From NCBI RefSeq assembly GCF_019711355.1, contig NZ_CP081297.1, forward strand, positions 1,550,001 through 1,614,000: a stretch of 64,000 bases of DNA. The letters run 5' to 3'. Under the pieces are notes generated by a model that saw nothing but the letters and a program-made list of their open reading frames with translations, did not search any database and was not told where the DNA came from. Position 1 is the stretch's first letter; every line of letters starts with the position of its first letter. Both the position numbers and the translations under genes were made by a program. Origin of the DNA: Qipengyuania psychrotolerans. Lineage in GTDB: Bacteria > Pseudomonadota > Alphaproteobacteria > Sphingomonadales > Sphingomonadaceae. Below, piece by piece: positions 20,020-24,927 of the stretch.

Positions 20020-20648
20020 TGGGCGATCTTCCCATACTCTACAGCTTCCGGCGCTGCCCCTATGCGATGCGCGCGCGCATGGCGCTGTGGATCAGCGGGA
20101 CACGGTGCGAACTGCGGGAGGTTAAGCTAGCTGACAAGCCTGCCGAAATGCTCGAGGCTTCGCCCAAGGGGACCGTGCCGGTGCTGGTACTGCCGGATGG
20201 GCAGACCCTTGAGGAAAGTCTCGACGTGATGCGCCATGCGCTTGGCCGCAGCGATCCAGAAGGCTGGCTCGCAGGTGAGGTCGAAGAATTGATCTCTCGC
20301 AATGACGGCCCGTTCAAGCATCATCTCGACCGGTACAAATACTATACCCGCCACGATACCGACCCGATGGAGCACCGCGCGGCGGCATTGGCGATCCTGT
20401 CCGAACTGGACGCGCGTCTGGAAGGTCAGGCGAACCTGTGCGGTGACACCCGCAGCATGGCGGATATCGCCCTGTTTCCCTTCATCCGGCAATTCGCAAA
20501 TCATGACCGTGCGTGGTTCGATGCCTTGCCGCTGCCCCGGCTTCAGGCATGGCTCAAACGGCATCTGCAAAGCGAACTGTTCGCCTCTATCATGATGAAG
20601 CATCCGGTCTGGCAAACAGGCGACGAGGCCGTATTGTTCCCTGCTTAA
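20019..20648 (+). CDS. Glutathione S-transferase family protein (thioredoxin-fold N-domain)
   Basis: A 209-aa GST-like protein. The N-terminus begins [20 protein letters not shown], a thioredoxin fold with a glutaredoxin-like C-P-Y-A active site, followed by K-G-T-V-P-V-L-V-L-P-D and a helical C-domain with the N-cap M-A-D-I-A-L-F-P-F. The start is the ATG at 20019 that overlaps the trhO stop; the longer open frame upstream is antisense noise inside trhO. It may use the Cys as a disulfide reductase (omega/GrxB-like) rather than a transferase. The 4-bp convergent overlap with nadE is notable. Confidence 0.85.
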   Translation: MGDLPILYSFRRCPYAMRARMALWISGTRCELREVKLADKPAEMLEASPKGTVPVLVLPDGQTLEESLDVMRHALGRSDPEGWLAGEVEELISRNDGPFKHHLDRYKYYTRHDTDPMEHRAAALAILSELDARLEGQANLCGDTRSMADIALFPFIRQFANHDRAWFDALPLPRLQAWLKRHLQSELFASIMMKHPVWQTGDEAVLFPA

Positions 20649-22939
20649 AGCGGGGGCAAGGCCCGCTTCAGGTCTTCCAGCCAGACATCGGCGACCGCAT
20701 CGCTCGGTGCGCGCCAATCCCCGCGCGGCGACAATGCGCCGCCTGCGCTGACCTTGGGGCCATTCGGCATCGCGCTGCGCTTGAACTGGCTGAGGCCGAA
20801 GAACCGTTTCACGAATTTTTCCAGCCATCCTGCAATCGTGGCAAGATCGTATTCGTTGCGGTTTTCCTGCGGGAAATCGATCGGCCACTGTCCGTCTTTC
20901 GCATCCTGCCAGGCGTGCCAGGCGAGGAAAGCGACATGGCTGGGGCTTTGGCCATAGCGGATCACATGGTGGAGGAAGAAATCGTTCAATTCATACGGCC
21001 CGATGATGGACTGCGTGGACTGGATTTCCCCGTCTTCGCCCGCAGGGACAAGCTCGGGGCTGATTTCGGTATCGAGGATCGCCAGCAATACGTCATCGAC
21101 GCCGTCGTCGAACTGGTGCGTGGTGGTGGTCCAGCGGATGAGATACTGGATGAGCGTTTTCGGGACGCCTGAATTGACGCCGTAATGGCTCATCTGGTCG
21201 CCCACGCCGTAGGTGCACCAACCGAGCGCCAATTCGGACAAATCGCCAGTACCAAGCACGAACCCGCCGTGATGGCCCGCAAGACGGAACAGGTAGTCGG
21301 TGCGCAGTCCCGCCTGCACATTCTCGAAGGTCACGTCATAGACCGGTTCTCCTTCTGAGAACGGGTGTTCGATATCTTCCAGCATCTGCCTGGCAGCCGG
21401 CTTGATGTCGATTTCCTCTGCGCTGATCGAAAAGGCTTTCATCAGCTTCCAGGCGTTCGACTTGGTGTGATCAGATGTCGCGAACCCCGGCATCGTATAA
21501 CCGCGAATATCGGTGCGGGGGCGGCCAAGCCGGTCCATCGCCTTGGCTGCAACCAACAGGGCATGGGTCGAATCCAGTCCGCCGGAAATCCCGATGGTGA
21601 GGCACTTGGCATGCGTCGCCTCGATCCGGCGCATCAGGGCATCGACCTGGATATTGAACGCTTCGTAGCAGTCCTCGTCCAGCTTTTCCCGCCGGTTGGG
21701 CACGAAGGGGAAACGGCGGACTGGACGGACGAGTCCGATATCCTTGCGTGCAGCACCATGTTCAAAACTGGCGCGGCGGTACCAATCTTCGGGCCGGTCA
21801 GCGGCGTCGGCAGCATCGCCCCAGGTCTGCATCCGCATCCGTTCGGCAAGTATGCGCCGCGTATCGATGTCCGTAACGCAAAGCTCAGGCTCGTGGTCGA
21901 ACCGCACGCTTTCGACCATCAAATCGCCAAGTTCGTAGATCATGCCCTGCCCGTCCCACGAAAGGTCGGTCGTGCTTTCGCCGTATCCGCTGGCCGAATA
22001 GGCATAGGCGCAGACGAGGCGCGAGGAACTGGCGCGGGTCAGCATATGGCGCTCGTCCGACTTGCCGATAGTGATGTTGGACGCAGACAGGTTGAGCAGG
22101 ATCGTCGCCCCTGCCAACGCCGCCCCTGTTGCGGGCGGATTGGGCGACCAGAAATCCTCACAAATCTCGATACCGAAAGTGAAGCCGGGCAGGTCCGACG
22201 CATTGAAGATCAAGTCGGTGCCGAAAGGCACGCTCTCACCGTTCACATCGATTTGTAAGCCTACGCAGTCGCGCCCGTGGCTGAACCAGCGCTTTTCGTA
22301 AAACTCGCGGTAGTTCGGCAAATAGCTCTTCGGCACCACGCCCAGGAGTTGACCGCGAGTGATAGCGATGGCGCAATTGTATATCCGCCCGTTCCTGCGC
22401 AGCGGCGCGCCGATCACCAGCACCGGAGTGAGGTCACGCGAGACGTCGACGATCTGGGCAAGATGGCGTTCGACTGATTCCAGAAGTGCGGTTTGCAGAT
22501 GCAGATCGTCGATAGCGTAAGAAGACAGGCAAAGCTCCGGATAGAGCAGCAGGTCGACGCCTTGGCCATCGGCCTTGCGCGCCTGTTCGATGATCCCTTG
22601 CGCATTATATGCGACGTCGGCCGTACGCACCTTCGGCGTAGCAGTCGCCACCCGTACGAAGCCGTGGGTGTGCATGTCGTAGAAGGGATGCGTGTCGCTC
22701 TTGGCCATTTCCTGGTGGTCTTTCTGTTGGTCTTGCGCCGGCGCAATCCAGTCTGCCGGTTCACAGATACCTAATTCGGCAAGCTTGCGCTGGGCATCGG
22801 CACGGGCAATCCGGCCCTTGCTTTCCCAGCCAAATACCGTCTGAGTCTTGAAACCGTGCTGATCGGCGAAATCCGCTGCGGACAGCGCCGGGCGCTGCGC
22901 TTGACGCCATGCCTTCAGTTTCTGTCCTGCAAGGTGCAT
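20645..22939 (-). CDS. nadE: Fusion of N-terminal HTH domain to glutamine-dependent NAD+ synthetase
   Basis: The main part, from about residue 78 (MAKSDTHPFYDMHTHGF), is glutamine-dependent NAD+ synthetase. Its nitrilase-type glutaminase domain has the Glu in L-L-Y-P-E-L-C-L-S-S-Y, Lys in V-P-K-S-Y-L-P-N-Y and Cys in E-I-C-E-D-F-W, and the synthetase domain has the ATP loop I-S-G-G-L-D-S-T. It amidates deamido-NAD+. Residues 1-77 form an in-frame extension resembling a short XRE-type helix-turn-helix (L-K-A-W-R, A-x-F-A-x-x-x-G, T-V-F-G-W-E-x-K-G-R, A-Q-R-K-L-A-E-L-G-I-C). An internal start at 22708 would give a normal 687-aa enzyme but has no clear ribosome-binding site. A 15-nt dyad abuts the upstream start. 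Confidence 0.9.
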   Translation of the reverse strand: MHLAGQKLKAWRQAQRPALSAADFADQHGFKTQTVFGWESKGRIARADAQRKLAELGICEPADWIAPAQDQQKDHQEMAKSDTHPFYDMHTHGFVRVATATPKVRTADVAYNAQGIIEQARKADGQGVDLLLYPELCLSSYAIDDLHLQTALLESVERHLAQIVDVSRDLTPVLVIGAPLRRNGRIYNCAIAITRGQLLGVVPKSYLPNYREFYEKRWFSHGRDCVGLQIDVNGESVPFGTDLIFNASDLPGFTFGIEICEDFWSPNPPATGAALAGATILLNLSASNITIGKSDERHMLTRASSSRLVCAYAYSASGYGESTTDLSWDGQGMIYELGDLMVESVRFDHEPELCVTDIDTRRILAERMRMQTWGDAADAADRPEDWYRRASFEHGAARKDIGLVRPVRRFPFVPNRREKLDEDCYEAFNIQVDALMRRIEATHAKCLTIGISGGLDSTHALLVAAKAMDRLGRPRTDIRGYTMPGFATSDHTKSNAWKLMKAFSISAEEIDIKPAARQMLEDIEHPFSEGEPVYDVTFENVQAGLRTDYLFRLAGHHGGFVLGTGDLSELALGWCTYGVGDQMSHYGVNSGVPKTLIQYLIRWTTTTHQFDDGVDDVLLAILDTEISPELVPAGEDGEIQSTQSIIGPYELNDFFLHHVIRYGQSPSHVAFLAWHAWQDAKDGQWPIDFPQENRNEYDLATIAGWLEKFVKRFFGLSQFKRSAMPNGPKVSAGGALSPRGDWRAPSDAVADVWLEDLKRALPPL

Positions 22940-22976
22940 GTTGATGCGATTATCCTAAAAAGATAAACGCATCAAC
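22940..22976 (-). promoter_or_regulatory. 15-nt inverted repeat abutting the HTH-NadE start codon (operator or RNA hairpin)
   Basis: The left arm 22940-22954 and right arm 22962-22976 are reverse complements at 14 of 15 positions (single mismatch at 22949/22967), with a 7-nt spacer containing five As. The repeat touches the ATG at 22937-22939 and ends 2 bp before the topoisomerase stop. As DNA it looks like an operator for a dimeric HTH protein. As RNA it would fold the only AGGA upstream of the start into the hairpin. Confidence 0.7.
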
Positions 22977-22978
22977 AC

Positions 22979-23983
22979 TTACGCGGCTGCAAGCAGGTCC
23001 GCAGAGTGGGGTGAACCTTCGAGGAGCGCGATCAAGCCGCGTTCCTCACGCGTATGCCAACGGGTTGAACGCGGCAAGTTCATGGTATCGCGCCATTCTT
23101 CCTGCCGCTCGACAAGGTCGATCACCGCAGGGTGGATGTAGCTTTTTCGCGTGACCGCAGGCGTATTGCCCAGCTTCGTCGCGACGCAATCGAGCAGGTC
23201 CTTGATCGGCATCCGCCCATCGCCTTCCCACAGGGCTTTGAACGCCAAAACGCTTGCGTGCCAGGTGCGGAAGTTCTTCGCGGTGAAGCGTTCGCCCATC
23301 GTTTCTTCGAGATACTCATTCACATCGCTCGAACCGACCGACCGCACATCTCCGTCGTCATCCAGATATTGGAACACGTTTTGACCCGGCAGGTCCTGCA
23401 TCTTGCGCACGATCCTGGCCAGGCTGCCATCGGTCAAAGTGACTTCGCGCATTTTACCGGACTTGCCCTTGTAGCGAAGGCTCAGCGTCTTTCCCGTCAC
23501 ATCGGCATGACGCTGGCGCAGCGTGGTGGCTCCGAAGCTCTTGTTGCGTTCGGCGTACCCTTCGTTCCCGATACGGACAGCGCCCAGGTCGAGCAGGCGA
23601 ATCACGCTGGCGATGACCCTCTCGCGGGTCAACTTGCGGCCGCGAAGATCATCTTCGACCCGCTTGCGCACCAGCGGCAATAGTTTGCCAAATGTCACGC
23701 AGCTGTCGAACTTCTCACTTTCACGCGCGGCACGAAATTCGGGGTGATACCGGTATTGCTTGCGTCCCTTCGCATCGACGCCGGTTGCCAGGATGTGCCC
23801 GTTGTGCGCCGGACAAAACCACGCATCGACATAGGCCGGCGGCAATGCGACGGCGTTGAGCCGCTGCTTCTCGGCCCGGTCGGTAATCAGCGCGCCTTGG
23901 GGATCGTAATAGGCCCAGCCCCTCCCTGCCCCCTTGCGGGTGATGCCGGGTAGGCTGTCGTCGATATAGATGAGCTTCGTCAT
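22979..23983 (-). CDS. DNA topoisomerase IB
   Basis: Poxvirus-type topoisomerase IB, which nicks one DNA strand through a 3'-phosphotyrosine to relax supercoils. The 334-aa product has the N-terminal clamp domain (R-G-W-A-Y-Y-D-P-Q-G), the catalytic-domain arginine/lysine region (L-L-D-L-G-A-V-R-I-G-N-E-x-Y, L-R-Y-K-G-K-S-G-K), F-R-T-W-H-A-S, and the nucleophile Tyr at about residue 282 (R-K-S-Y-I-H-P). The start at 23983 (MTKLIYIDDSLPG) follows the family pattern; a 35-codon upstream extension is unlikely. Its 5' part faces the divergent GST gene. Confidence 0.93.
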   Translation of the reverse strand: MTKLIYIDDSLPGITRKGAGRGWAYYDPQGALITDRAEKQRLNAVALPPAYVDAWFCPAHNGHILATGVDAKGRKQYRYHPEFRAARESEKFDSCVTFGKLLPLVRKRVEDDLRGRKLTRERVIASVIRLLDLGAVRIGNEGYAERNKSFGATTLRQRHADVTGKTLSLRYKGKSGKMREVTLTDGSLARIVRKMQDLPGQNVFQYLDDDGDVRSVGSSDVNEYLEETMGERFTAKNFRTWHASVLAFKALWEGDGRMPIKDLLDCVATKLGNTPAVTRKSYIHPAVIDLVERQEEWRDTMNLPRSTRWHTREERGLIALLEGSPHSADLLAAA

Positions 23984-24075
23984 GGCGAAGGGAAGAACCG
24001 TGGCAGGGGTGTAGCGGTTCCCCATCTTGCGACGAACGGAAGGGTGAACTAGCCCTTTGCCCAAAGGAGACCCTA

Positions 24076-24927
24076 ATGGCCGACGCAACCTATACCCCGC
24101 CCGCAGTCTGGACTCATGATGCCGAGAACGGCGGCAAGTTTGCCAGCATCAACGCCCCGACCGCCGGTGCCCGCGAACAAAAGGAACTGCCTGTCGGAGA
24201 ACACGACTTCCAGCTCCATTCACTCGCCACGCCCAACGGCGTGAAAGCTACCGTGATGTTCGAAGAGCTGCTCGAAGCGGGGCATTCAGGCGCGGAATAT
24301 GATGCCTGGACGGTCAACATCGGCAATGGCGACCAGTTCGGTTCGGGCTTTGTCGACCTCAACCCCAATTCCAAGATTCCCACCCTGCTCGACCGCAGCG
24401 GCGACACGCCGATCCGTATCTTCGAAAGCGGCGCGATCCTGATGCATCTGGCCGAAAAGTTCGGCGCCTTCCTGCCCACCGATCATACCCGCGCCGAAGT
24501 GCTCAGCTGGCTGTTCTGGCAGATCGGAAGCGCGCCGTTCATCGGGGGCGGCTTCGGTCACTTCTACGCCTATGCGCCCGAGAAGTTCGAATACCCCATC
24601 AACCGCTATGCGATGGAAACAAAGCGCCTCTTCGACGTGGCGGACCAGCGTCTGGCGCAAAGCGAATTCCTGGGCGGCAAGGATTATACCGTCGCTGATA
24701 TCGCAGCTTGGCCGTGGATGGCGCCGTTCGTCGAAGGCACGATCTACAACGAAGCCAAGACTTTCCTCTCGATCGACGAATATGAAAACGTCGCCCGGTG
24801 GGCGAAGCAGATCGGGGCGCGGCCCGCCGTGAAACGAGGCCGCATCGTCAACAAGGCATGGGGTGATGAAGACACCCAGCTGCTCGAGCGTCATTCGGCC
24901 GCCGATTTCGAAGGCAAGAAGCTCTAG
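24076..24927 (+). CDS. yghU: YghU-type glutathione-dependent disulfide-bond oxidoreductase
   Basis: The 283-aa product matches the YghU/YfcG nu-class GSTs. It has a long N-terminal arm (Y-T-P-P-A-V-W) before the thioredoxin fold, G-D-Q-F-G-S-G-F-V-D-L-N-P-N-S-K-I-P in the glutathione-binding loop, E-S-G-A-I-L-M-H-L-A-E-K, and a C-domain ending Y-T-V-A-D-I-A-A-W-P-W. Known members bind two glutathiones and reduce organic hydroperoxides and disulfides. The ATG is preceded by AAAGGAGA. It is divergent from topoisomerase IB and convergent with argE. Confidence 0.9.
   Translation: MADATYTPPAVWTHDAENGGKFASINAPTAGAREQKELPVGEHDFQLHSLATPNGVKATVMFEELLEAGHSGAEYDAWTVNIGNGDQFGSGFVDLNPNSKIPTLLDRSGDTPIRIFESGAILMHLAEKFGAFLPTDHTRAEVLSWLFWQIGSAPFIGGGFGHFYAYAPEKFEYPINRYAMETKRLFDVADQRLAQSEFLGGKDYTVADIAAWPWMAPFVEGTIYNEAKTFLSIDEYENVARWAKQIGARPAVKRGRIVNKAWGDEDTQLLERHSAADFEGKKL

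Follow-up and report, generated by a model that had tools for sequence, protein, structure and literature searches.

A Cro-type helix-turn-helix domain fused to NAD+ synthetase in Qipengyuania psychrotolerans and its predicted role in nadE autorepression

PutA carries a ribbon-helix-helix DNA-binding domain, and NadR joins a helix-turn-helix (HTH) domain to nicotinamide mononucleotide (NMN) adenylyltransferase and ribosylnicotinamide kinase. Both, together with BirA, are trigger enzymes with DNA-binding domains; PutA is a single-target autorepressor, Escherichia coli NadR and BirA are multi-target regulators, and the five trigger enzymes named in E. coli in the portion of the source drawn on here do not include NadE, the NAD+ synthetase (PMC8249747). 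The 64,000-nucleotide stretch of the Qipengyuania psychrotolerans genome analysed here (contig NZ_CP081297.1, positions 1,550,001 to 1,614,000; hereafter the window) contains a nadE gene whose product, as judged from sequence and predicted fold, has the trait of a trigger enzyme in that a domain of DNA-binding type is added to a complete enzyme within a single chain. It is highly probable that this protein, HTH-NadE, acts as an autorepressor of nadE, and its HTH probably belongs to a cassette captured from a cro-like gene.

On the same account, the closest of the described systems in logic is PutA, which is active in metabolism, has a DNA-binding domain and acts as a repressor of the gene that encodes it. 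However, PutA catabolises its inducer, whereas in HTH-NadE a Cro-type HTH is attached to a biosynthetic NAD synthetase. NadR and BirA resemble HTH-NadE in having enzyme and DNA-binding domain in one chain and, on the proposed reading, in controlling cofactor genes, but NadR carries NMN adenylyltransferase, and the only enzyme domains found in the fusion protein are those of NadE. NrtR and NadQ control NAD biosynthesis as stand-alone proteins, and their HTH is of another kind. Neither the fusion protein nor its own genome gave an NrtR_WHD match (4 of 14 control genomes score), and the NadQ consensus, ttATRCTCannntGAGYATaa as given in the part of the source used here (PMC5343134), differs from the operator in the window. 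With phage Cro, P22 c2 and the 434 repressor, HTH-NadE shares its predicted fold, helix 3 as the presumed reader of DNA, a putative palindromic operator and, beside stand-alone relatives of the domain, a CI-like partner, the difference being that here the HTH is fused to a housekeeping enzyme. The phosphonate enzymes HppE and MPnS also bear an HTH-fold domain, which is not known to bind DNA in either. Among the papers listed by searches of the open-access literature, none reports in its title or abstract start an HTH fusion to NadE or to 3-deoxy-D-arabino-heptulosonate 7-phosphate (DAHP) synthase, an aromatic-amino-acid enzyme considered below.

The fusion open reading frame (ORF) lies on the minus strand (20645..22939) and comprises an ATG start, 764 amino acids and a stop codon, with no stop inside. 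An earlier note on this DNA had described an HTH domain and a complete NadE in a single uninterrupted frame; the 764-codon ORF and the recurrence of the fusion across the family confirm that the two are fused in frame. Residues 85–764 (20648..22687, minus strand) form a complete type 1 glutamine-dependent NadE, with both the glutaminase and the synthetase domain (Pfam CN_hydrolase at residues 96–321 and NAD_synthase at 431–595; NCBIfam NAD(+) synthase PRK02628 at 85–760, 1052 bits) and an end-to-end alignment to the Mycobacterium tuberculosis enzyme 3dla (3dla residues 4–678, E=1.3e-253). The linker spans residues 65–84 (22688..22747, minus strand), about 20 residues and not the 12 claimed earlier, and includes an internal ATG (22706–22708) at fusion residue 78. 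Its segment 65–80 is predicted to be disordered, with a predicted local distance difference test (pLDDT) score below 50 in the full-length AlphaFold2 model, which is of mediocre quality (pLDDT 73) and was used for the disordered linker alone.

Residues 1–64 (22748..22939, minus strand) are predicted to form a lambda-repressor/XRE-type HTH domain. AlphaFold2 applied to the N-terminal domain yields a confident five-helix fold with the HTH in helices 2 and 3 (block means of 91–94 over residues 11–60), and its Foldseek/VIA structural matches include P22 c2, SinR, HigA and C.AhdI. The predicted recognition helix, helix 3, comprises residues 32–40 (TQTVFGWES; 22820..22846, minus strand) and contains residues 33 and 36, here Q and F. 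The N-terminal 79 amino acids score below every curated cut-off (best NCBIfam model IS66 TnpA, E=0.005; best Pfam model HTH_Tnp_1, E=0.026, 15.2 bits against a cut-off of 24.1), and a stand-alone relative, L070, falls just below that of Pfam HTH_31 (26.6 bits against 27). The class is assigned by predicted structure and not by a curated family model. For the window and 11 close relatives, dN/dS is 0.078 for HTH codons 1–64 and 0.038 for codons 29–48, compared with 0.102 for NadE (first 160 codons from the HTHG motif) and 2.8–3.0 in the two shifted HTH frames. The low value in the fused frame, together with the family-wide recurrence, indicates that the fused HTH is a translated, constrained part of the protein.

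The HTH extension is present on NadE in 25 of the 37 genomes of the window's genus (its own included). The earlier note had raised the possibility of such fusions in other Erythrobacteraceae, and they occur in 60 of 397 family genomes, spread over many genera and including many marine Erythrobacteraceae. A scan of named-species genomes gave 124 relatives, the best 80 of which were kept, comprising 73 NadE fusions and seven DAHP synthase fusions, the latter from Sphingomonas; named hosts of the NadE fusion are Qipengyuania, Erythrobacter, Altererythrobacter, Alteraurantiacibacter, Aurantiacibacter, Croceibacterium, Parerythrobacter and metagenome-assembled genomes. A profile search of 385 class genomes, which scored the 14 best candidates per genome and so may miss further fusions, gave hits in six genomes: NadE fusions, one DAHP synthase fusion and two weak matches in HTH plus peptidase-S24 repressors. 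Protein-database searches returned NadE alone (35/35), DAHP synthase alone (66/66) and, in another, three small proteins.

A palindrome, TTATCT-TTTTA-GGATAA, forms the putative operator (22950..22966, minus strand), with its right half-site ending 10 nt ahead of the HTH ATG. It is embedded in a longer inverted repeat (22939..22977, minus strand) with 16-nt arms (94%) and a 7-nt spacer, the arms being found in the window alone among the compared upstream rows. The TTG of a −35-like element (22973..22975, minus strand) stands 6 nt before the left half-site. The palindrome would thereby fill the −35/−10 spacer and the −10 region of the nadE promoter, a placement that points to repression and to a leader that is very short or missing, and the nadE mRNA is predicted to be leaderless or nearly so. 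Upstream on the same strand is a bacterial DNA topoisomerase IB gene (22979..24088, minus strand; Pfam Topoisom_I and Top1B_N_bact), noted for context, whose stop codon is 39 nt before the HTH start.

All 60 family NadE fusions have an operator-type site beside the start: 50 at 4–12 nt from it, five of the TTATC class, and those of genomes G383, G107, G286, G380 (11/12 matches, one mismatch) and G205 (GTAGCC class). The classes seen at this position in relatives are GTATCC-n5-GGATAC, GTAGCC-n5-GGATAC and ATTATC...GATAAT. Over whole genomes, 53 of the 60 with the fusion contain a perfect GTATCCn5GGATAC, versus 21 of 337 non-fusion genomes (Fisher 1.1e-40), and the seven fusion genomes that lack this perfect site, namely the five of the TTATC class, G205 and G380, have their variant sites in the same place. 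Within 160 nt upstream, the best class site scores 11–12 of 12 in 73/75 NadE fusion loci (the exceptions are L232 with 9 and L021 with 8) and 7–9 of 12 in 13/13 nadE loci without the HTH, 12 from the window's genus and one (G051) from another family. Among the 80 named loci, 69 have an exact class match within 45 nt, always 8–12 nt ahead of the start; of the remaining 11, ten are off at one position and L232 is degenerate. When palindromes were scored only at 5–13 nt before the start, in real and shuffled upstream sequences alike, at least five of six half-site positions matched in 106 of 109 loci versus 4.1% of shuffled upstreams (the 80 named loci, 25 further DAHP synthase loci, the window, L021, L070 and L152, with some species present twice). 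In 94 of these 109 loci a TTG precedes the left half-site by 6–7 nt, mostly as part of CTTGC.

Residues 33 and 36 of helix 3 predict half-site bases 1 and 4, the exceptions being confined to single half-sites. R33/Y36 is paired with GTATCC (57 loci; the right half is G..T in all and the left half deviates in nine), Q33/F36 with TTATC (15/15 loci), S33/Q36 with TTACCC (32 loci; right half T..C in 31) and Q33/Y36 with a right half whose base 1 is T (three loci), while the stand-alone relative L152 has G33/Q36 with C..C. The class of residue 33 (Q or R) equals that of the operator (TTATC or GTATCC) in 71/71 scored NadE fusion rows, out of 76, four being truncated (including L226) and L027 falling outside the helix expression. 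Independent contrasts on the starred branches of the NadE tree agree in 6/6 cases (p=0.031). L226 has an R-class long-loop backbone yet carries Q33 and a TTATC site. In L206, from Erythrobacter vulgaris, an R-class HTH and a GTATCC site are joined to a NadE body whose place in the tree is among Q-class bodies, an apparent swap of the whole HTH-operator cassette. The suggestion of the earlier note that an enzyme with its own DNA-binding domain could autoregulate gains support at the level of sequence from the palindrome at the promoter position, from this helix covariation and from the absence of the site in the examined nadE genes that have no HTH.

The NadE tree contains 80 rows (67 fused, 12 non-fused and one distant outgroup, with nine short-contig fusion loci left out). 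Its earliest branches carry the fusion, and parsimony requires nine label changes, five of them forced by starred branches; an old gain followed by several losses appears the likeliest history. Of the 13 nadE loci without the HTH, L253 (G010), whose NadE body nests among Q-class fusions, is the one that scores 9/12; its TTATCC-like site about 11 nt before the start may be due to chance or may be the decayed remnant of an operator whose HTH was lost.

In 25 of 61 Sphingomonas genomes (the genus of G150), class II DAHP synthase (PF01474, 687 bits) carries an HTH of the family seen on NadE; a 26th case, G840, is cut by a contig end. These HTH-DAHP synthase loci (L063:2029-3618, L122-L146 and L237-L243) have one or two operators of the TTTACCC-n5-GGGTAAA type. 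TTACCCn5GGGTAA is matched at 10 or more of 12 positions in 32/32 loci (the 25 and the seven named), a score reached by 19 of 6,400 shuffled upstreams and in none of the 16 non-fusion DAHP synthase loci examined. A second TTACCC site is present in 23 of the 32 loci; it lies upstream of the first by 32–65 bp in 18 of them and by 24 bp in five. In genome G886 (C1:49143-50696), a DAHP synthase match from residue 10 is interrupted by internal TGA and TAA codons, possibly a decaying fusion.

As for separate homologues of the HTH, which the earlier note had envisaged, there are three stand-alone cro-like relatives, L070:3480-3701, L071:3746-3973 and L152:941-1249. Each is beside a CI-like HTH gene, and L070 and L071 also adjoin primase/Toprim genes. 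They have the setting of a prophage Cro, a stand-alone HTH beside a CI-like repressor and replication genes, fully in L070 and L071 and partly in L152; the HTH of the window does not have it, and would be related to prophage Cro by descent only. Start-proximal palindromes accompany L070 (TTATTC-n5-GGATAA) and L152 (CTTCCC-n5-GGGTAG). With CI-like genes beside all three relatives and a palindrome at two of them, an autoregulated cro gene is a plausible source of the cassette, and the HTH probably descends from a prophage gene similar to cro, or from such a gene on another kind of mobile element. A search of viral contigs gave five stretches, none of them confirmed, and a search of phage records gave no good match, 15 weak ones (E=0.04–0.08) being set aside. 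It is somewhat better than an even bet that the cassette is portable, a mobile-element cro gene with a leaderless promoter-operator that was captured at least twice, by nadE in Erythrobacteraceae and by class II DAHP synthase in Sphingomonas, such that enzyme concentration and ligand or oligomer state would set transcription.

We propose that the N-terminal Cro-type HTH of NadE, as a dimer within the enzyme oligomer, binds the palindrome at its own promoter. Type 1 NadE is described as octameric in the part of the source consulted (PMC7196632), so several HTHs could be presented to DNA as dimers. Bound HTH-NadE would cover the spacer and the −10 region and repress nadE, so that nadE transcription would fall when NadE is abundant and a single gene would make up the autorepression loop. 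The cassette of HTH and operator would have come to lie ahead of nadE at an early stage in the sampled Erythrobacteraceae, become joined to it in frame and been maintained by selection, with several later losses; relatives that have no HTH also have no operator. A cassette with an HTH of this family but another DNA specificity would have been joined to class II DAHP synthase in Sphingomonas. DNA binding and repression are inferred from these sequence comparisons, and the best reading is that HTH-NadE targets mainly its own promoter. Conceivable modulators of binding are NAD+, NaAD, ATP, glutamine and the oligomer state; modulation by NAD+ or a substrate is in our view less likely than not.

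Several observations weigh against autorepression by a captured cassette. Every Foldseek match of the HTH has E above 0.05, a strict sigma-70 scan of the window found no promoter, and no clear operator precedes the start of the stand-alone relative L071. The 2.74-Mb genome of the organism contains a single exact TTATCn7GATAA, but this uniqueness is weak alone because the short pattern is shared by 30 of 38 genus genomes, including some in which this HTH class is absent, and because the count with one mismatch (19 places) is near that of the reversed control (13). L021, L027 and L232 have a variant helix (GQTVYNW or AQAVYNW) and a degenerate left half-site. Because a stretch of about 150 bp contains both HTH and operator, some of the six contrasts could reflect joint transfer and not co-adaptation. 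The ancestral fusion with later losses is not firm, since the tree samples non-fused NadE only in the genus of the window and in a single distant outgroup.

As RNA, the window palindrome folds into a strong hairpin (z −4.2) that would cover the ATG, and a weak terminator-like site overlaps it. The palindrome might instead work as an RNA hairpin, in the nadE leader or as a terminator for the topoisomerase gene, with the HTH a bystander or oligomerisation domain; in line with this, HppE, an enzyme with this fold and no known role in regulating transcription, is among the Foldseek matches. We consider this improbable, since the site class tracks the recognition-helix residues, HTH and site are absent together, a stem pair is broken in seven GTAGCC-GGATAC loci, the 16-nt arms are seen in the window alone among the compared upstream rows, and the second DAHP synthase sites lie above the −35-like TTG in 18 loci and overlap it in the five at 24 bp. 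A still smaller probability attaches to the fusion being an annotation artefact, with NadE made from the internal ATG at 22708 and the HTH a separate cro-like product or an unused frame. An internal Met is found in 60 of 65 scored linkers, non-fused NadE starts at about that position, and a Shine–Dalgarno-like core lies 4–16 nt ahead of the HTH start in just 23 of 97 fusions, which fits a leaderless start or a weak one. However, five of the 65 linkers have no Met, so the internal start is not available in all fusions; the fused frame is under strong purifying selection; and intervening stops, which the earlier note had allowed for, are absent from the matched part of 25/25 genus fusion matches through HTH and NadE. 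Dual starts giving both fused and free NadE are possible.

HTH-NadE could also be an activator, or a dual regulator of nadE and further genes in a small NAD regulon, a reading that we rate as very unlikely, on a par with the annotation artefact. Some XRE proteins activate, and second GTATCC sites are present in nine fusion genomes. The site would nevertheless cover the −35/−10 spacer and the −10 region, as is typical of repression, and exact TTATCn7GATAA is single in the organism's own genome, a count that covers exact matches. The second GTATCCn5GGATAC sites were rejected as a regulon: the eight listed (that of G107 is the one outside the list) are all intragenic, seven in a PmbA/TldD-type gene (family assignment checked on L113 and L120) and one, in G076, in an ATP-grasp gene. 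At L111-L118 the chance GTATCC-n5-GGATAC in the PmbA/TldD-type gene corresponds to GILKGY codons, a caution for motif scans in general.

Enzymes that double as transcription factors are few. Autorepression by HTH-NadE would add to them a natural family that is represented by many replicate sequences, involves two unrelated enzymes and has a DNA-recognition code that can be read, making testable both the domestication of a mobile-element repressor domain and the readout of enzyme state at a promoter. For synthetic biology, it points to a self-limiting expression cassette that comes ready-made. For Q. psychrotolerans, it proposes a route of nadE control in a genome where an NrtR/NadQ-type regulator was searched for and not found.

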